A stretch of DNA of 64,000 nt, from NCBI RefSeq assembly GCF_003014555.1, contig NZ_PYGE01000003.1, positions 258,206-322,205 on the forward strand, in the 5' to 3' direction. This DNA is from Haloactinopolyspora alba. GTDB lineage: Bacteria > Actinomycetota > Actinomycetes > Jiangellales > Jiangellaceae. The notes under the pieces were generated by a model. The model ran no database searches and was not told the DNA's origin. It was given only the letters and a program-made list of their open reading frames with translations. Positions 7,439 through 56,636 of this stretch are shown one piece after another; position 1 is the first letter of the stretch; every line of letters begins with the position of its first letter. The translations under genes and the position numbers were made by a program.

Positions 7439-7731
7439 GCGTGCTGCGCTCCTCCACGGTCGGTGACGTGGACGATCCTACGAGTCCCGGCGGCGCGGAG
7501 CTCGTCCGGTCGGCCGGTCCGGGTTGACCCGGCGATCCTACGTCAGCCGGCGCCTGAGCCGAGCGGCGATCGGCCCGAGTCGAGCGCCGTCTCACGGCCC
7601 GCCACGGCCGGTGGCTTCGGCGTGCTCGGTCCTGCCCGGCCTGGCCACCGATGCGTGGTGGGGACAGCCCCACCCCCGGTTCACCGGATTCCCGGCTCGT
7701 CCGTCCACGCCAATCGCGACATGCTCATGAC

Positions 7732-9021
7732 ATGGACACGACAACCTCGACCAGCCCTCGCGCCGGCTGGAATCAGGTCGGGCGCGACATCGGCTACCTG
7801 CTTCCCGGCCTGCCGATCGCCATCGCCTCCTTCGTCGTCATGGTCACCGGGTTCTGGCTCGGTGCCGGCCTCTTCGTCCTCGCCTTCCTCGGCCTGGTCG
7901 TCTGGGTCGCCATGCTCGGCGCCGCCCGCGGGTTCGCCACCGCCGAGCGGTCCAGAGTGTCGCTGATGGAGCAGCGCCCCGTCGGCCCGGTGCAGCGGCG
8001 GCCGGTCACCGGCAGCGGCATGGGCCGGCTGCTCAGCTTCATCCGGGACCCGATGGCGTGGCGGGAGTGGGGATACTGCGTCCTGATCCTGCCGCTGCGC
8101 GTGTTCACCTGGTCACTGACCATCGCGTGGCTGTCGGCGTCGCTCGGCGGCACCAGCTACGCCCTGTGGGAGTGGTCACTGCCACACGACGACGAGACCA
8201 ACGACACGCTGGCCGAGCTGATCGGCATCGGCGACGGCGCGCTCGCCGACGTCGCGCTGAACACCGCCATCGGCCTGGTGTTCCTGCTGACCCTGCCGTA
8301 CGTGCTCCGAGCGCTGGCACTGGCCGAATCCGCCCTGGTGTGGGGGATGCTCACCAACGAGAACGCCGAGCTCCGCGCCCGCACCGAGGAACTCAGCCGC
8401 AGCCGCAGCGCCGTCGTCGCCGCCGAGGCGGACACGTTGCGTCGCGTCGAACGCGACATCCACGACGGACCCCAACAACGCCTCGTCCGCCTCACCATGG
8501 ACCTCGAATCCGCCCAACGCCGCTTCGACAACCACGACCACAACACCGCCCTCCCCCTCCTCGAAGGCGCCGTCAACCAAACCAAAGAAGCCCTCGCCGA
8601 ACTCCGCGCCGTCTCCCGCGGCATCGCCCCACCCATCCTCACCGACCGCGGACTGCCCGCAGCCCTCGCCGCCGCCACCGCACGCAACCCCATCCCCACC
8701 ACCCTCGACACCACCCTCCACGACAACGAACGACTCCCCAGCTCCATCGAAAACGCCGCCTACTTCGTCGTCACCGAAGCCCTCACCAACGCCGCCAAAC
8801 ACGCCGACGCCACCCAATGCACCGTCACCGTCCACCGCCTCGACAACACCCTCCACGTCCAAATCACCGACAACGGACGCGGCGGCGCCCACCCCGGCAA
8901 AGGCCACGGACTCACCGGCCTCAACGACCGCCTCACCGGCATCGACGCCACCCTCGACATCACCAGCCCACCCGGCAACGGCACCACCATCACCGCCCAA
9001 CTCCCCATCCCCACCCAGTAG
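7732..9021 (+). CDS. Sensor histidine kinase (HisKA_3 type), copy 1
   Basis: A 429-residue membrane kinase starting MDTTTSTSPRAGW. The N-terminal half has four hydrophobic segments of the 'sensor domain' type (ending near residue 210). After the linker come the dimerisation/phosphotransfer box RDIHDGPQQR (phospho-His at 244), the N box EALTNAAKHA, and the ATP-binding glycine boxes DNGRGG and GHGLTGLNDR. From residue ~231 to the end the DNA is identical to the next gene. That shared part uses CAA, GAA, AAA, CCC and CTC codons, while the sensor half uses CAG, GAG, CCG and CTG. No response regulator is adjacent; the NarL-type regulator at 15993 is a candidate. Confidence 0.92.
   Translation: MDTTTSTSPRAGWNQVGRDIGYLLPGLPIAIASFVVMVTGFWLGAGLFVLAFLGLVVWVAMLGAARGFATAERSRVSLMEQRPVGPVQRRPVTGSGMGRLLSFIRDPMAWREWGYCVLILPLRVFTWSLTIAWLSASLGGTSYALWEWSLPHDDETNDTLAELIGIGDGALADVALNTAIGLVFLLTLPYVLRALALAESALVWGMLTNENAELRARTEELSRSRSAVVAAEADTLRRVERDIHDGPQQRLVRLTMDLESAQRRFDNHDHNTALPLLEGAVNQTKEALAELRAVSRGIAPPILTDRGLPAALAAATARNPIPTTLDTTLHDNERLPSSIENAAYFVVTEALTNAAKHADATQCTVTVHRLDNTLHVQITDNGRGGAHPGKGHGLTGLNDRLTGIDATLDITSPPGNGTTITAQLPIPTQ
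8422..9017 (+). repeat. 596-bp perfect direct repeat, copy 1 (kinase catalytic module)
   Basis: Bases 8422-9017 are identical, base for base, to 9681-10276 when the two are compared line by line. The unit begins a few codons before the phospho-His box and ends one base before the last sense codon is complete (CAG here, CAA in copy 2). Sequence before the left border differs between the two genes. This points to recent gene conversion or duplication of the catalytic module alone. Confidence 0.97.
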
Positions 9022-9065: not shown

Positions 9066-10280
9066 GTGAGCACGACAGAGCCCGGCCGCCCGGAGGCCAG
9101 TTGGCGCCAGATCTGGCGCGACCTCGGGTACATGCTGCCCGGCCTGCCGATCGCGGTCGCGTCGTTCGTCGTCGCGATCGCCGGGCTCGCGCTCGGCGTC
9201 GGCCTGTTCGTCGTCGCGTTCGCCGGGCTGGCCATCATGGTCGGCACGCTGGCTGCCGCACGCGGCTTCGCCCACACCGAACGGCGGCGCGTGGGATGGG
9301 TCGAGCGGCGCGAGGTGCGGCCGTTCCACTACCGGCAGGTGAACGGCAACCTCTTGGGCCGGCTGCTCGGCCGGCTGCGTGACCAGCAGAGCTGGCGGGA
9401 CTGGACCTTCGCGGTACTGATACTGCCGGTGCGGGTGCTCACGTGGTCACTGACCATCGTCTGGCTGGCGCTGTCCATCGCCCTGACGCCACTGACCCTG
9501 CTGGCGTGGGCGGTCAGCGGCGGCGGAGGGTTCCGCGGGTTGCCACGGGTGTTCGCCTACGTCCTCCGCGGCCTGGTGACGCTGGAGTCGATGCTGGTGT
9601 GGGGGATGTTGACGGACGAGAACGCGGAGCTGCGCGCCCGGGCGGAGGCGCTCACGCACAGCCGGGCCTCAGCGGTGCAGGCCGAGGCGGACACGTTGCG
9701 TCGCGTCGAACGCGACATCCACGACGGACCCCAACAACGCCTCGTCCGCCTCACCATGGACCTCGAATCCGCCCAACGCCGCTTCGACAACCACGACCAC
9801 AACACCGCCCTCCCCCTCCTCGAAGGCGCCGTCAACCAAACCAAAGAAGCCCTCGCCGAACTCCGCGCCGTCTCCCGCGGCATCGCCCCACCCATCCTCA
9901 CCGACCGCGGACTGCCCGCAGCCCTCGCCGCCGCCACCGCACGCAACCCCATCCCCACCACCCTCGACACCACCCTCCACGACAACGAACGACTCCCCAG
10001 CTCCATCGAAAACGCCGCCTACTTCGTCGTCACCGAAGCCCTCACCAACGCCGCCAAACACGCCGACGCCACCCAATGCACCGTCACCGTCCACCGCCTC
10101 GACAACACCCTCCACGTCCAAATCACCGACAACGGACGCGGCGGCGCCCACCCCGGCAAAGGCCACGGACTCACCGGCCTCAACGACCGCCTCACCGGCA
10201 TCGACGCCACCCTCGACATCACCAGCCCACCCGGCAACGGCACCACCATCACCGCCCAACTCCCCATCCCCACCCAATAG
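9066..10280 (+). CDS. Sensor histidine kinase (HisKA_3 type), copy 2
   Basis: A 404-residue membrane kinase, GTG start, 44 bp after copy 1. Its sensor half is clearly related to copy 1 (LGYMLPGLPIAVASFVV versus IGYLLPGLPIAIASFVV) but diverged, and it carries a shorter fourth-segment loop. The phospho-His is 219, in RDIHDGPQQR, and the whole catalytic half is identical to copy 1. Two different sensors sharing one output module should feed the same response regulator. The codon-use break at the module border is as sharp as in copy 1. Confidence 0.92.
   Translation: MSTTEPGRPEASWRQIWRDLGYMLPGLPIAVASFVVAIAGLALGVGLFVVAFAGLAIMVGTLAAARGFAHTERRRVGWVERREVRPFHYRQVNGNLLGRLLGRLRDQQSWRDWTFAVLILPVRVLTWSLTIVWLALSIALTPLTLLAWAVSGGGGFRGLPRVFAYVLRGLVTLESMLVWGMLTDENAELRARAEALTHSRASAVQAEADTLRRVERDIHDGPQQRLVRLTMDLESAQRRFDNHDHNTALPLLEGAVNQTKEALAELRAVSRGIAPPILTDRGLPAALAAATARNPIPTTLDTTLHDNERLPSSIENAAYFVVTEALTNAAKHADATQCTVTVHRLDNTLHVQITDNGRGGAHPGKGHGLTGLNDRLTGIDATLDITSPPGNGTTITAQLPIPTQ
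9681..10276 (+). repeat. 596-bp perfect direct repeat, copy 2 (kinase catalytic module)
   Basis: Second copy of the unit at 8422-9017, offset by exactly 1259 bp. The perfect match starts at a GCC GAG GCG GAC stretch and runs nearly to the stop codon. The plus strand here is strongly C-rich and G-poor (about 29 C to 11 G in a sampled 60 bases), unlike the flanks, where C and G are balanced. Confidence 0.97.
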
Positions 10281-12584: not shown

Positions 12585-14486
12585 TCATGTGAACGGGACG
12601 ACGAACTCGGCCGGGGTCAGCGCGCGGTCGCTGATCCGCACGTCGCCGAGGTAGCCGTAGAAGCCCTGGCCGAACGCGTTGTCGAAGGCGTTCGCACCGA
12701 GCGTGAACGGCAGGCCCAGGGTCGCGATGCCGTGCGCGGGCTGGGCCGGGTTGCGCGCGATCCGCGAGCCCTCGACCCACACGACCGAGGTCGACCCGTC
12801 GTTCACCACCGCCACGTGGAACCAGCGCCCGACCGGCAGCGCGTGGCTCCACGACGTCGGCGAGGCGTTCTGCACGTGCGGGTACAACACGAACTGCAGG
12901 AACCGCTCCCCCGACAGGTTCAGGCTGCACACCGACTCCAGCGGCGAGTAGCCCTCGGTCTTGCCCGCGTCGCCGGCCCGGCCCTGCCAGCTGAGGATCC
13001 CCATCCAGGCATGGTCGCCCTCGAACGGCTCGGGCAGTTTGACGAACAGCTCGATGGTGAACCCGTCCAGGAACGTCGCCGAGTTGATCGCGGCGTCGGC
13101 CACCGCCTCGAGCACGGCGCCGCGATCGGGACTCTGGCCGCCGTCGAAGCGCAGGCTCGCGTGCGCCGGCGCGCCCTCGTGGTGCTCCACCGAGCGGGTC
13201 AGCACGCCCGGGCCGCTGGAGTGCAGGCGCCGCACCACCAGATCGTTGCCGTTGCGGGTCAGATCGGCGGCGACGGCGCCGTCGTCGACCACCGCGCCGT
13301 CCTCGACCCGGCCGCGCAGGCCGACCGTGTCGAAGCGCCAGTACGCCACCGTGTGGCGGCCGATGACCCGCCGCGGCGGCCGCGGGCGCGGCGACGTGTC
13401 CGGCGCGAACCCGGCGAAGCGGGCCTCGGTGTCCAGGGGCAGGCTGAACCGGTCGACGTCACCGGTCAGCTCGATGACCTCGGCCCCGAGCGGCGGGCGC
13501 TCGGCTGCGTCCCGGGTGAGGAACCACGGCGCGAACGTCTCAACGTCGATCACGCCGCGCGCCAGGTCGAACTGGTAGAGCCGGATCATGCCGGCACCGC
13601 CGTAGTAACGGTCCTGGTAGTTGGTGATGTGCACGTGGACGTCGTTGCCGGCGTCGTTGGTGAGCACGGTCCGCCCGGGCGGCCAGTAGTGCCCGCCGAG
13701 CGCCATGAACACCTGATCGTTACGGCGGATCAGGCCGTCCCACAGCCGCTCGCCGTTCGGCGACAGCGTCGCCGCGCCGTCGTCGTCGGCGTAGGCGAGG
13801 TCGTGCGTGGTGACTACCACCGGTGTGCTCGCATGCTTGTCAATGACCCCCTGCGCCCAGGCCAGCCCGGCATCCGAGACGCGCCAGTCCAGTGCCAGCA
13901 CCAGCCAGCCGCGGTCGGCCGCGGTGAGCACGTGGTAGCTGTTGTAGCCGTCCGGCGACGCACCGCCGAACGTGTCGTTGCCGGCGAAGCGCGACGGCCC
14001 GAACGCCCGCAGGTACGCGCTGTCGCCGCGCTGGTCGTCGGTGGACGAATCGACGTCGTGGTTGCCCGCCAGGACGCTGAACGGCACGACGCCGTCCAGC
14101 GCGGCGAACGTCTGGTCGGCCAGCTCGATCTCGTCGGCGTCGCCGTGCTCGGTGACGTCGCCGAGGTGGGTCATGAACGCGACGTTCGCGAGGCCGCGCT
14201 GCTCGGCCAGGTAGCCGAAGGTCGACTCCAGCGGCGCCGGGTCCGACCGGTCCTGGTCGAACAGGTACTGCGTGTCGGGCAGCACCGCGATCGCGAACCT
14301 GGGACTGTGCGGATCGAACACGCCGGGCTCGGGGGGCGCCACCGGCGCCGCGCCGGCGCCGCTGGTCGCGTCCACCAGACTCGGCAGCGCCGCGGCCGCG
14401 GGGGTCGCCATCGCGCCGAGCAGCAGGTGCCGGCGACGGACACCGCTGGTCCGCCCCGTGGGCGCCGGGACGTGGGACTCGGACAT
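12585..14486 (-). CDS. Tat-exported metallophosphoesterase with C-terminal LamG-like domain
   Basis: A 633-residue secreted protein. The N-terminus carries a twin-arginine signal (RRRHLLLG at 17-24, then an Ala-rich stretch). The phosphoesterase motifs follow: PDTQ (Asp71), GDVTEHG (Asp109), GNHD (140-143), then TTHD and GGHYW. A C-terminal region of ~200 residues (AYWRFDT ... DGFTIELFVKLPEP ... YGYLGDVRISDRALTP) has the pattern of LamG/concanavalin-like domains, which bind sugars or surfaces. The start at 14486 has a GGAGG 7 bases upstream; the frame stays open further upstream without a better signal. It probably hydrolyses a phosphoester outside the cell. Confidence 0.85.
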   Translation of the reverse strand: MSESHVPAPTGRTSGVRRRHLLLGAMATPAAAALPSLVDATSGAGAAPVAPPEPGVFDPHSPRFAIAVLPDTQYLFDQDRSDPAPLESTFGYLAEQRGLANVAFMTHLGDVTEHGDADEIELADQTFAALDGVVPFSVLAGNHDVDSSTDDQRGDSAYLRAFGPSRFAGNDTFGGASPDGYNSYHVLTAADRGWLVLALDWRVSDAGLAWAQGVIDKHASTPVVVTTHDLAYADDDGAATLSPNGERLWDGLIRRNDQVFMALGGHYWPPGRTVLTNDAGNDVHVHITNYQDRYYGGAGMIRLYQFDLARGVIDVETFAPWFLTRDAAERPPLGAEVIELTGDVDRFSLPLDTEARFAGFAPDTSPRPRPPRRVIGRHTVAYWRFDTVGLRGRVEDGAVVDDGAVAADLTRNGNDLVVRRLHSSGPGVLTRSVEHHEGAPAHASLRFDGGQSPDRGAVLEAVADAAINSATFLDGFTIELFVKLPEPFEGDHAWMGILSWQGRAGDAGKTEGYSPLESVCSLNLSGERFLQFVLYPHVQNASPTSWSHALPVGRWFHVAVVNDGSTSVVWVEGSRIARNPAQPAHGIATLGLPFTLGANAFDNAFGQGFYGYLGDVRISDRALTPAEFVVPFT

Positions 14487-14647
14487 GTGTGGACCTCCGG
14501 ACCGGACGGTGCGGCCAGGTCGCTCGATACCGAGCACCTGGACGATTTGGCGGTGTTCCTGGACATTTCGCTCGCCTATCGGATCAGCACCGGGTGGACG
14601 GTCAGCGGCCAGGGTGTGACAGCACGCGATCCCCTCGATGAACGACA

Positions 14648-14722
14648 CCGACTTCGATACCGCCAGGTGCCGGGGATCAGGTCGATGCGGCCGACGAGGG
14701 CAACCGGCGGTATCGAAGTCGG
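14648..14722. repeat. Hairpin repeat 1, left copy (upstream of DUF559-type gene)
   Basis: A perfect 17-bp inverted repeat, CCGACTTCGATACCGCC (14648-14664) and its complement (14706-14722), around a 41-bp centre. Weaker pairing extends about 7 bp further in. The first 23 bases recur exactly at 15886-15908 in the same orientation beyond the gene. It lies in the 299-bp gene-free stretch 14487-14785, which otherwise must hold the phosphoesterase promoter. Confidence 0.85.
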
Positions 14723-14785
14723 GGCAACCGCAGTTGTCCACAGACTGTCCGCGCTCGGTTCCGCCACGCGCGGCGGCCGAGCACC

Positions 14786-15871
14786 GTGGCGGAGATCATG
14801 GGCCGCAGAACTCACCTCCCCTCCGACATCCTGACGTTCCTCCGAGAGCACGAAGGGCTGATCGACGTCCGGACCGCTCGTGCGTCCGGCATTGCACGAG
14901 ACCGCCTGCACCGGCTGGCCCGGGCGAAGCTGCTGGTGCGCGTGGCCGAGGGGGTGTACGCGTCCGCCGACACCGTCGACGGGCTAAGCGGCTGGGCACT
15001 GTACGAGCTGCGGGCCCGGGCGTTCGTGCTGTCCTGCAGCCCGGACGCCTTCCTGACCGGCTGGTCCGCAGCTGCCGTGTGGCGGCTGCCCACCCTGGGC
15101 AGGCCCCCTGCCCGTCCGGTCGTGGTCCGGCCGAAACAGCCGGGGCGAGGAAGCAAGAACGGTGTCTTCGGCCGGATCCTCACCGCCGACACACCGCCGC
15201 ACCACCGATGGCAGCGTGGCCGCTCTCGAGTGGTCAGCCCAGAGTGGGCAGCCGCGACCATCGCACTGACGGCACCCGTACCGGCGGCGTTGATCGTCGC
15301 CGACGCTGTCACACGCCAGGGCGGCGACATCGCCGACGTCGTGGCGCACATGCGCCATTGGCCGGGCGTGTCCCGGGCAAGCTGGGTCGCCACCCATGCC
15401 GACCCGTTGGCCGAGAGCCCGCTCGAGACGCTCGGCCGGTTCGGCATCATCGCAGGTGCGCTGCCAATGCCGGTGTCCAACGCGTGGGTCGGCGCCGGTC
15501 GGCCCGAGTACCGAGTCGACGGGCTGTGGCCGCATCACCATGCCGCCCACGAGGCGGACGGCGACGTCAAGTACAACAACCGCCCCGATGCTGCCGCCGT
15601 CGTCGCCGACGAGAAGGAACGTGAGTGGCGCCTGCGCCGGCTCGGGCTCGACATCGTGCGCTACGGATTCACCATCGCGGCCTACCGCCGCCACGAGCTC
15701 ATCGGCCGGTTCACCCAGTTGCTGCGCGACAACCCGCCGCACGGCGAGCCGATCCGATGGTGGAAACACGTTCCCGGCGTCGGCCCGGTCGAGCCCGAGC
15801 CGGACGACTGGCCGTCTCCGCTGCCCACTTCCGTCGTCCTGCCCGCGAGGTGGTGGCTCGATCACGGCTGA
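14786..15871 (+). CDS. AbiEi-domain / DUF559-type nuclease-fold protein, unit 1
   Basis: A 361-residue protein. The N-terminal ~100 residues look like the AbiEi-type winged helix (LREHEGLIDVRTARASGI ... GVYASADT). The C-terminal ~130 residues look like DUF559/Vsr-like restriction-endonuclease folds: ESPLETLGRFG, then RVDGLWP followed by HEADGDVKY (E-x-D with a following Lys), then REWRLRRLGLDIVRYGF. No partner toxin (AbiEii nucleotidyltransferase) is adjacent, so this is not a normal type IV toxin-antitoxin pair. The gene lies between two direct copies of a hairpin (14648-14722 and 15886-15958). The start is a GTG; an ATG at 14798 is an alternative. Role unknown; possibly a DNA nuclease linked to mobility of the unit. 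Confidence 0.8.
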   Translation: MAEIMGRRTHLPSDILTFLREHEGLIDVRTARASGIARDRLHRLARAKLLVRVAEGVYASADTVDGLSGWALYELRARAFVLSCSPDAFLTGWSAAAVWRLPTLGRPPARPVVVRPKQPGRGSKNGVFGRILTADTPPHHRWQRGRSRVVSPEWAAATIALTAPVPAALIVADAVTRQGGDIADVVAHMRHWPGVSRASWVATHADPLAESPLETLGRFGIIAGALPMPVSNAWVGAGRPEYRVDGLWPHHHAAHEADGDVKYNNRPDAAAVVADEKEREWRLRRLGLDIVRYGFTIAAYRRHELIGRFTQLLRDNPPHGEPIRWWKHVPGVGPVEPEPDDWPSPLPTSVVLPARWWLDHG

Positions 15872-15885
15872 GGCCCGGCAACCCG

Positions 15886-15958
15886 CCGACTTCGATACCG
15901 CCAGGTGCAACCAAGCGGCCGCAATCGGCCGTCGCCCGCAACCTGCGGTATCGCAGTC
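15886..15958. repeat. Hairpin repeat 1, right copy (downstream of DUF559-type gene)
   Basis: The first 23 bases equal those of the left copy. The 14-bp arm GACTTCGATACCGC (15888-15901) pairs with GCGGTATCGCAGTC (15945-15958) with one mismatch. The centre differs from the left copy. It starts 14 bp after the gene's stop and ends 34 bp before the response-regulator start. Confidence 0.8.
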
Positions 15959-15992
15959 ACCACGAATGGACGGGACCTGGCAGGATGTGTGC

Positions 15993-16640
15993 GTGCGCGT
16001 CGTTCTGGCTGAAGATTCCATGCTGCTCCGCGAGGGGCTCGTCCGTCTGCTCGGTGAGGCCGGGGCGGAGGTGCTGGACGCCGTCGGGGACGGGGACTCG
16101 CTGGTCACGTCCGTGGTGAAACACCAACCGGACGTGGCCGTCGTCGACGTCCGGATGCCGCCGACGTTCACCGACGAAGGGCTGCGCGCCGCGTTGTCGG
16201 CCCGCGAGCAGGTACCGGGGACCTGCGTGCTGGTGCTGTCGCAGTACGTCGAGGAGTCGTACGCGGGCGACCTGCTCGCCGGCGGCGGTGGCGGCGTCGG
16301 CTACCTGCTGAAGGACCGGGTCTCGGCGCTCGGCGACCTCTCCGACGCGCTGGAACGGGTGGCCTCCGGCGGGACGGTGCTCGACCCCGAGGTGGTCTCG
16401 CAGCTGTTCGCCCGGCGACGCCGCGACCCGCTGGAGACGCTGACCACCCGCGAGCGCGACGTGCTCGCGCTCATGGCCGAGGGGCGAACGAACACCGCCA
16501 TCGCGCGGATGCTCGTGGTCACCCACGGCGCGGTCGAGAAGCACATCTCCTCGATCCTCACCAAGCTGGACCTCGGGCCGTCCGACGACGACCACCGACG
16601 GGTCCTGGCCGTGCTGGCCTGGCTGCAGTCGGAGCAGTGA
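15993..16640 (+). CDS. NarL/LuxR-family response regulator
   Basis: A 215-residue two-component regulator. Receiver domain: acidic pocket AED (residues 6-8), phospho-Asp52 in VVDVRMPP, Ser83, and Lys107 in YLLKDR. LuxR-type helix-turn-helix near residues 150-200 (LTTRERDVLALMAEGRTNTAIA ... VEKHISSILTKL). The GTG at 15993 is chosen because AGGA lies 7 bases upstream and receiver domains start right there. No kinase is adjacent. This subfamily normally pairs with HisKA_3 kinases like those at 7732 and 9066, which lie on the same strand 5.7 kb upstream. Confidence 0.9.
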   Translation: MRVVLAEDSMLLREGLVRLLGEAGAEVLDAVGDGDSLVTSVVKHQPDVAVVDVRMPPTFTDEGLRAALSAREQVPGTCVLVLSQYVEESYAGDLLAGGGGGVGYLLKDRVSALGDLSDALERVASGGTVLDPEVVSQLFARRRRDPLETLTTRERDVLALMAEGRTNTAIARMLVVTHGAVEKHISSILTKLDLGPSDDDHRRVLAVLAWLQSEQ

Positions 16641-55495: not shown

Positions 55496-55545
55496 GATGA
55501 GGGCGTCGCTACTGGGGCCATGACACCACCAACGACGCCCTCATC
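55496..55545. repeat. Hairpin repeat 2, copy A (between glgX and DUF559-type gene)
   Basis: Perfect 13-bp arms, GATGAGGGCGTCG (55496-55508) and CGACGCCCTCATC (55533-55545), around 24 bases. The right arm overlaps the stop codon of the minus-strand gene at 55541. It may work as a bidirectional terminator for glgX and that gene. A near-identical copy in the same orientation lies at 56590-56636. Confidence 0.9.
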
Positions 55546-56578
55546 GCCCGAGACCGGCCAGGTACGCGGCCTCGAGCTCGGCCAGTACGGCGTCCGGATC
55601 GGCGCGGATCCGGGCCGGCGACACCGGCAGCACCCGCCAGCCGAGCGCCGCGTAGCGAGCTCGACGCTCCTCCGTGCGGCGCGGCGCGTCGCCGAACCCG
55701 TGCCAGCTGCGTGAGTCGACCTCGACCACGAGCCGCGCCCGCGGCCAGCACGCGTCGGGATGGATACCGCGGCTGCCCGGCAGCACGCGGTTCCATCGCG
55801 GCTCGGGCAGCACACGGCTGCGGCGTACCAGGTCGCGCAGTTCGCACTCCGGCGCCGAGCGGCATCCTGCGTCGATGTCGCGCATCGCCAGACGGGCCAG
55901 CGCACCGCCGCGCCGGGGAGCGGCGGCCACCTCGGCGCGCAGGTCGGCCACACTCGCGCGGCGACGTTGGACGACCTCGCACATCAGGGCGCGGACGTTG
56001 CGTAGCGCACTCGCCCGGTGCAGCCGGCCTCCGCGGCAGTCAGGGCAGTCCGTCCGGCGCGGCGAACAGGCCGGGCGCCAGTCCATCGGGAGTCGATCCG
56101 GCCGGACGACGGTGTCGATCACGACACGGGCCGCAGGCGCCATCGGGATGACGCCGGGCGAAGCGCTGGGCGCGAGCGGGTCGAGCGTCACGTCCAGCGG
56201 CGGACCGGATCCGCGGGCGTCCTCGAGACGTTCCTCGTCGACCCACCGTCGCGCGTCGGGCATGCGCCGGGTGCGGACCAGACGCACGCGAGCTGTACTG
56301 CCGCGGCCGCGTCCGTGCCCGACCAGGACGTCGACCGCGTCACCCAGGGGCGGTCCGTATCGCAGCCCGATCATGTCGCAGCCCCAGGGACCTGTCACGA
56401 CGGCTTCGTCGCCTGCGTACAGAACCGCCACGCGGAGCCGGTGCAGCGTGTTCAGCGGTCCGCTGAACGTCGCGTAGACACCGGGAAGCACGCGCTGCCA
56501 CGGGCCGCCCGAGCGGATCGCGTGCCTGAGCATGTCGAGCGTCATGCCGGCCGCGAGCGCTTGGCTCCTGGTGATCAT
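55541..56578 (-). CDS. AbiEi-domain / DUF559-type nuclease-fold protein, unit 2
   Basis: A 345-residue protein with the same layout as the one at 14786 but very different sequence. The N-terminal domain is AbiEi-like (MITRSQALAAGMTLDML ... VLPGVYATFSG). The C-terminal part is DUF559/Vsr-like: APECELRDLVRR (first acidic residue), ARLVVEVDSRSWHGFG (E-x-D), RRARYAALGWRVLPVSP. No toxin partner is adjacent. The gene is bracketed by two direct copies of a hairpin: one overlaps its stop, the other begins 11 bp before its start codon. Function unknown; nuclease activity is likely from the fold. Confidence 0.82.
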   Translation of the reverse strand: MITRSQALAAGMTLDMLRHAIRSGGPWQRVLPGVYATFSGPLNTLHRLRVAVLYAGDEAVVTGPWGCDMIGLRYGPPLGDAVDVLVGHGRGRGSTARVRLVRTRRMPDARRWVDEERLEDARGSGPPLDVTLDPLAPSASPGVIPMAPAARVVIDTVVRPDRLPMDWRPACSPRRTDCPDCRGGRLHRASALRNVRALMCEVVQRRRASVADLRAEVAAAPRRGGALARLAMRDIDAGCRSAPECELRDLVRRSRVLPEPRWNRVLPGSRGIHPDACWPRARLVVEVDSRSWHGFGDAPRRTEERRARYAALGWRVLPVSPARIRADPDAVLAELEAAYLAGLGR

Positions 56579-56589
56579 GCCGTCCTGGA

Positions 56590-56636
56590 GAGGGCGTCGC
56601 TACTGGGGCTATGACACCACCAACGACGCCCTCATC
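56590..56636. repeat. Hairpin repeat 2, copy B (between DUF559-type gene and hydroxyacid dehydrogenase)
   Basis: GAGGGCGTCG (56590-56599) pairs with CGACGCCCTC (56624-56633). The 47 bases from there to CATC differ from copy A at one position (C to T in the loop). It ends six bases past the stop of the hydroxyacid dehydrogenase gene, for which it may act as a terminator. Confidence 0.9.

Follow-up and report, generated by a model that had tools for sequence, protein, structure and literature searches.

A single gene that lies between two copies of one palindromic sequence raises the question of whether gene and palindromes belong together and, if they do, what kind of element they form. We address this question for a predicted nuclease gene in the actinobacterium Haloactinopolyspora alba (G000 among our genomes, 5.5 Mb), within a window, meaning the whole stretch of DNA analyzed, of 64,000 nucleotides. 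The closest homologs of the gene in the relatives of G000 are those of Jiangellaceae. Together with matching palindromes scattered over the genome, the gene suggests a type of small spreading element that has so far gone unnoticed.

The locus and its neighbors

The nuclease gene is an open reading frame on the plus strand that runs from a GTG at 14786 to a stop codon at 15871 and encodes 361 aa. To its left, at 14648 to 14722, lies an inverted pair of half-sites, CCGACTTCGATACCGCCAGGTGCC and GGCAACCGGCGGTATCGAAGTCGG. To its right, at 15886 to 15958, lies a second such pair, whose left half-site is identical over 23 nt and whose right half-site has one mismatch in its outer 13 nt; neither element is assigned a strand. 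A preliminary description had delimited the same reading frame and had noted that the first 23 bases, CCGACTTCGATACCGCCAGGTGC, are the same in both repeats and equally oriented (14648 to 14670 and 15886 to 15908), that the centers of the two hairpins are unlike, and that the neighboring genes are divergent, all of which agrees with what we find. Both repeats also form stems, as described, but the arms are longer than the 14 to 17 bp first given: 24 nt and 92% complementary in the left hairpin (14648 to 14722) and 21 nt and 81% complementary in the right (15888 to 15958). The folding z-scores are -5.5 for the left and -4.4 for the right, with 0 of 200 shuffles folding equally well. At this locus the repeats are indeed direct copies, but their orientation says little, as the element is nearly palindromic and both relative orientations are seen between the flank repeats of homologs.

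Upstream, a calcineurin-like phosphoesterase gene on the minus strand (12585 to 14487, start about 14487), which by reading of its sequence carries a Tat-type signal, is outside the system. Downstream, on the plus strand, is a gene for a NarL-type response regulator (15987 to 16640, start about 15987). Elsewhere in the window, tandem histidine kinase genes at 7651 to 9021 and 9066 to 10280 have identical C-terminal halves, from about "QAEADTLRRVERDIHDGPQQRLVRL" onward, a pattern that suggests recent duplication or gene conversion beside the point at which the kinase/regulator operon is broken.

An AbiEi-like module joined to a Vsr-type nuclease domain

Pfam places AbiEi_4 at the N terminus of the protein (E 2e-6), the only assignment from Pfam and NCBIfam together, with one other Pfam match under its cutoff. 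The protein fails to reach the Pfam DUF559 model, scores 12.6 against a cutoff of 150 with the NCBIfam AbiEi equivalog model, and has AbiEi-type hits only in a sequence search of the PDB (E 0.37); no relative was found in the viral contigs searched. An AlphaFold model from an input of 28 homologs (mean pLDDT 91, pTM 0.88) was compared with known structures by Foldseek. The N-terminal winged helix and the domain that follows it match the AbiEi antitoxin of S. agalactiae (E 4.5e-5) and Rv2827c (E 3.2e-4). The C-terminal part matches the catalytic domain of the homing endonuclease I-Bth0305I (3r3p; target TM-score 0.77, probability 0.84, E 1.0), as well as 3hrl (TM-score 0.58 on the target, probability 0.93) and 1vsr (TM-score 0.50), and the nuclease-fold matches, which include NGO0050 and Vsr, have weak E-values (0.3 to 4). 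The Vsr/DUF559-like nuclease fold that had been proposed from the sequence alone is supported by this confident model and its Foldseek matches.

Conservation agrees with the predicted fold in assigning the C-terminal domain to the nucleases. Across 28 aligned sequences, down to 27% identity, E210, E214, R218, R243, D245, E256, D258, G259, K262, and Y263 are invariant, and E210, E214, D245, E256, D258, and K262 are conserved putative catalytic residues of a Vsr/EDxHD-type nuclease. The nuclease region is also the best-conserved part of the protein, with a mean pairwise identity of 0.51, compared to 0.41 and 0.36 in the rest. Paralogs elsewhere in the G000 genome share 52 to 56% identity over most of the length, and near them are long palindromes whose sequences are of other types.

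Bracketing recurs across homologs

We surveyed 60 homolog loci with flanks of up to 10 kb, using our own gene caller and palindrome thresholds, on which the following rates depend. Long hairpins cluster within 150 bp of the gene, at 1.8 per kb in Jiangellaceae and their relatives and 2.0 per kb in Microbacterium, compared to roughly 0.05 per kb farther away. A hairpin is present within 250 bp for 45 of 56 focal homologs versus 35 of 462 neighboring genes (Fisher p 2e-32); in about a fifth of homologs, none was detected. When upstream and downstream flanks were compared with each other independently of palindromes, counting scores of at least 18 as a shared repeat, 31 of 55 focal genes shared one, versus 2 of 413 controls. 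The bracketed homologs, at about 30% identity, come from Jiangellaceae, Hoyosella, and Microbacterium, and the sequences of their elements differ. In Microbacterium, the downstream element at several loci (L092, L095, L101, L104, L111, and L113) runs into the nuclease gene at its 3' end: the left half of the element encodes the nuclease C terminus, and the stop codon falls at the element center.

Bracketing also extends to some DUF559 genes across Actinomycetota whose products are about 320 aa long, on both sides at L220 and L225 and on one side in others. The palindromes at these two loci, which belong to other actinobacterial families, are near perfect with short loops (GAACTTCGGGTGATTAGTGTCGC... 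and TGGGAAGGCCCAGTCCCG...), and the shape of the element is different. Short stand-alone DUF559 proteins are mostly not bracketed; one of these, L210, has short palindromes nearby.

Could such hairpins be ordinary transcription terminators, or palindromes that arise by chance around a GC-rich gene? Some background hairpins at the same loci do look like terminators, with short loops. The elements, however, have centers of 20 to 50 nt and no T-run in the sequences inspected, and the same sequence recurs on both sides of the gene and far from it, at fixed length and with strong enrichment. On grounds of length, loop, symmetry, and enrichment, we reject this reading and give it next to no credence.

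Dispersed elements match the resident gene

The search for further hairpins that had been proposed was productive: the 15-mer with which the hairpin starts occurs exactly 10 times in the 5.5-Mb genome of G000 and, with up to 2 mismatches, 71 times versus 4 for a reversed control pattern. By pattern searches, G000 has nine full elements of 69 to 71 bp with the form GACTTCGATACCG-N43 to N45-CGGTATCGAAGTC, two of which flank the nuclease gene, while the other seven are elsewhere, mostly intergenic and with no such nuclease gene adjacent. There are about 30 elements in each of G006 and G008 and roughly 18 to 20 in Microbacterium. The pattern ACTTCRMTACCGCC has 24 plus-strand and 32 minus-strand hits in G006, 26 and 24 in G008, and 6 and 5 in G000; copies are absent from most other relatives, which have 0 to 4 hits, and reversed-pattern controls give 0 to 1. 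A search of Rfam with the elements returned no match.

Elements found far from the gene are of the same sequence type as those beside it. In G008 all of the about 28 copies are of the GCTACC type that flanks its own gene, and in G006 there are AATACC and GATACC copies, two types that match its two genes. Among the scattered elements of Microbacterium and Humibacter, 27 of 27 best match the flanks of the resident gene among 11 candidate sets, a comparison that somewhat favors the M. oleivorans group, whose set is larger, with no such advantage for G067 (8/8) or G069 (5/5). The preliminary description would have been contradicted by a frequent repeat unconnected to such genes; despite the distant copies, this objection does not apply, because their sequence type follows the resident gene.

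Other observations count against the explanation we favor. Over all loci the similarity of half-sites correlates with that of the proteins (Mantel r 0.35, p 0.001), but the correlation is weak except above 70% protein identity, and within Jiangellaceae half-sites are shared only by pairs above this value. Four arm matches occur in G012, and three of these are clear elements, yet there is no close cognate gene.

Dispersal is also not universal. A second unit in the window consists of a minus-strand gene (55541 to 56578) for a divergent DUF559-like protein of 345 aa (Pfam DUF559 E 0.0023, below cutoff), with a 50-bp palindrome, GATGAGGGCGTCGTTGGTGGTGTCATGGCCCCAGTAGCGACGCCCTCATC (GATGAGGGCGTCGTTGGTGGTGTCATRGCCCCAGTAGCGACGCCCTC...), at its 3' end (55496 to 55545) and a near-identical copy on its 5' side (56588 to 56636) in equal orientation relative to the gene; no strand is assigned to either palindrome. 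In a search of the G000 genome, these two flanking copies are the only full-length exact matches, and a dispersed family of this palindrome in G000 is rejected.

Dispersed palindromic elements resemble REPINs (PMC3116915), and true REPs might be spread by an undetected HUH transposase of the RAYT/IS200 type encoded elsewhere, the nuclease gene merely lying between two of them. We think this very improbable, as dozens of loci and lineages show the bracketing, with elements that match the nuclease gene, and the nuclease protein itself is without the HUH fold by Foldseek.

Palindromes of other kinds were also encountered. An intergenic hairpin with arms like TGATCATGAACACTAGGCGACC recurs in Jiangellaceae, at L055 (about 17.9 kb), L058, L072, L077, and L151 upstream of the response regulator, with no nuclease genes nearby, and is possibly a separate dispersed palindrome family. 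At L059 and L061, 7.9 to 8.4 kb off the gene, are long hairpins that end in GGTGGGGAGGG...CCTCCCCACC, enclose long loops, and recur in Phytoactinopolyspora.

Elements move as discrete units

In G008, the element at C6:64587 is 97% similar to a gene-flanking element over all 68 bp, including the nonpalindromic center. The two sites are unrelated, their 30-nt flanks agreeing at 14 and 11 positions when about 10 is background, and homology stops at the edge of the palindrome. A second pair, the C16 and C24 elements of G000, shows 90% similarity, again between unrelated flanks (14/30 upstream and 8/30 downstream). The elements move as discrete units into unrelated sites.

The hutI gene offers a further case. 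In six Microbacterium genomes (L170 and L177 to L181), a 67-bp element lies inside hutI, in frame, and is translated as about 23 extra residues in imidazolonepropionase; in three further genomes, hutI is without the element and about 23 residues shorter. The element at this position in M. yannicii is of the type of its own nuclease gene, with an identity of 0.85 to the flanks of that gene and of 0.54 to 0.64 to the other hutI elements. This suggests a second insertion, though an ancestral insertion that underwent concerted change could also produce it. In G066 the hutI element is degenerate. Extra elements also tell close species apart at two loci.

Presence and absence extend to the gene itself. 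The gene with both elements lies just upstream of the same response regulator gene in G000, G006, and G008, and in G001, G002, and G014 this regulator comes straight after the histidine kinase, with no element or nuclease gene between. An empty site carrying one hairpin had been anticipated in close relatives; the empty site exists, in G001 of the same genus, but without a hairpin. G001, which has no nuclease gene, also lacks the element at three further sites that are occupied in G000. No target-site duplication or precise high-identity junction was found where exact junctions were sought: the intergenic regions of G000 and G001 are too diverged, and at both Microbacterium sites that were compared, each of the six close genomes carries an element.

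Both the presence of gene and elements at one site in some relatives and their absence from others, and the resemblance of the C-terminal domain to the catalytic domain of I-Bth0305I, would fit homing, in which an endonuclease of this type allows the bracketed gene to invade uninvaded alleles by cutting, and the scattered elements are by-products or remnants. Homing alone would not lead one to expect many short solo elements at unrelated sites or recent copying of solo elements, and we consider it improbable.

Probable paired half-sites rather than a selected hairpin

The geometry of the elements is rigid. Every one of the 83 Microbacterium element matches measures exactly 67 bp when spacings of 55 to 85 bp are allowed, and Jiangellaceae elements are 69 to 71 bp. 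Tandem repetition is frequent within the stems, with a period close to 19 nt; CGAGAC, for instance, stands at positions 1 and 20. When arms are compared inside one genome, those that belong to a single copy resemble each other no more closely than those taken from separate copies (0.732 versus 0.731 in the O group, 0.836 versus 0.861 in G067, and 0.643 versus 0.675 in G000), and so selection probably does not act on the DNA hairpin itself. Selection on hairpin pairing had appeared in a cross-species comparison (0 of 2,000 shuffles), a signal that vanished when halves were compared within genomes and that is attributable to species-specific consensus. On the simplest reading, what is conserved looks like an inverted pair of protein-binding half-sites at a fixed distance, with the hairpin as a by-product.

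AbiEi and Rv2827c recognize duplex DNA at paired 23-bp inverted repeats (PMC7319586). The absence of covariation between arms within genomes is not in itself proof of duplex recognition, but this absence and the rigid length would suit duplex binding. The strongest rival of our explanation is that the elements are operators of the AbiEi type. The flanking copies would autoregulate the gene, and the scattered ones, as targets of regulation or as relics, would owe their spread to ordinary recombination and not to the protein. The N-terminal part has its best structural matches in AbiEi and Rv2827c, and these do autoregulate through such paired repeats (PMC7319586). Yet elements also lie downstream of the gene, over its stop codon in Microbacterium, and inside the hutI coding sequence; copies travel as units with sharp edges; and a protein that only binds operators would have no need of a nuclease domain whose catalytic residues are invariant. 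We judge the operator model unlikely as a full account; the flanking elements may autoregulate the gene as well.

The explanation we lean toward is a single-gene selfish nuclease system with nonautonomous elements. The AbiEi-like DNA-binding module would recognize a short half-site, two of which, inverted and at a fixed distance, would make up the roughly 70-bp element; two such elements would bracket the gene, with more, nonautonomous ones scattered over the genome. From these genomic patterns and the known behavior of AbiEi-type proteins and Vsr-type nucleases, we infer that a dimer of the protein contacts the half-sites in double-stranded DNA, that the Vsr-like domain makes a nick or cut at an element or a target, or close to one, and that repair or copying at the break spreads the elements and, from time to time, the bracketed gene.

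Relation to known systems

To our knowledge, orphan genes annotated as "AbiEi antitoxin" or "DUF559" are common in actinobacteria and have no assigned role; in our sample, DUF559 is above cutoff in 56 of 149 actinobacterial genomes. If many of them are nucleases with dispersed elements of their own, a whole annotation class would be explained. They would also provide nucleases with many natural, readable site specificities, and the prediction is testable, since each genome shows the presumed binding site beside its gene. The association of nuclease and elements is undescribed in the open-access papers searched. We put about equal weight for and against the broader proposal that this is a widespread, undescribed class in Actinomycetota, in which an AbiEi module and a Vsr-type nuclease spread their own fixed-length paired-half-site elements with lineage-specific sites, a RAYT-like lifestyle evolved independently with a nuclease that binds double-stranded DNA. 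If true, the enzyme-plus-solo-palindrome lifestyle, otherwise known only from RAYT/REP, would have arisen independently a second time.

Of the known systems, AbiEi and Rv2827c (PMC7319586) share with the window protein the N-terminal winged helix with its following domain, the Pfam family AbiEi_4, and DNA sites in inverted pairs. Unlike them, this protein has an extra nuclease domain, and its sites lie on both sides of the gene and genome-wide. Nor is the locus a type IV toxin-antitoxin (AbiE) locus, since no gene for an AbiEii nucleotidyltransferase toxin is adjacent, the neighbors being a phosphoesterase and a response regulator. With the Vsr/EDxHD nucleases (I-Bth0305I, Vsr, and DUF559), the protein shares its C-terminal fold and conserved acidic and lysine residues, but here the nuclease is fused to an AbiEi-like module and tied to dispersed palindromic elements.

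The analogy with REP-associated transposases, drawn in the preliminary description, holds at the level of logic: a gene is bracketed, scattered copies match it, and copies come and go between relatives. Nunvar et al. (PMC2817692) found such genes always flanked by two REPs, with coevolution and correlated abundance of gene and REP, and REPINs were described by Bertels and Rainey (PMC3116915). As in RAYT/REP (REPIN) systems, one enzyme gene lies between two palindromic elements of a dispersed family, element abundance correlates with whether the enzyme is present, and the element type follows the resident enzyme, although half-site and protein similarity correlate weakly overall here. The enzyme, in contrast, combines an AbiEi-like module with a Vsr/DUF559-type nuclease in place of an HUH Y1 transposase, and no HUH (Y1) domain was found in the window protein by Pfam, which gave AbiEi_4 only, or by Foldseek, which gave no IS200 TnpA. 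The elements are inverted pairs of 67 to 71 bp in about 9 to 30 copies, whereas REPs are 20 to 40 bp and usually number more than 100, and here both flank orientations occur, with no sign of selected arm pairing. The absence of an HUH transposase from the protein and the differences in copy number and element size set this system apart from the RAYT/REP family; by its composition we take it to be new, and its lifestyle works like that of RAYT/REP, the system closest to it in logic.
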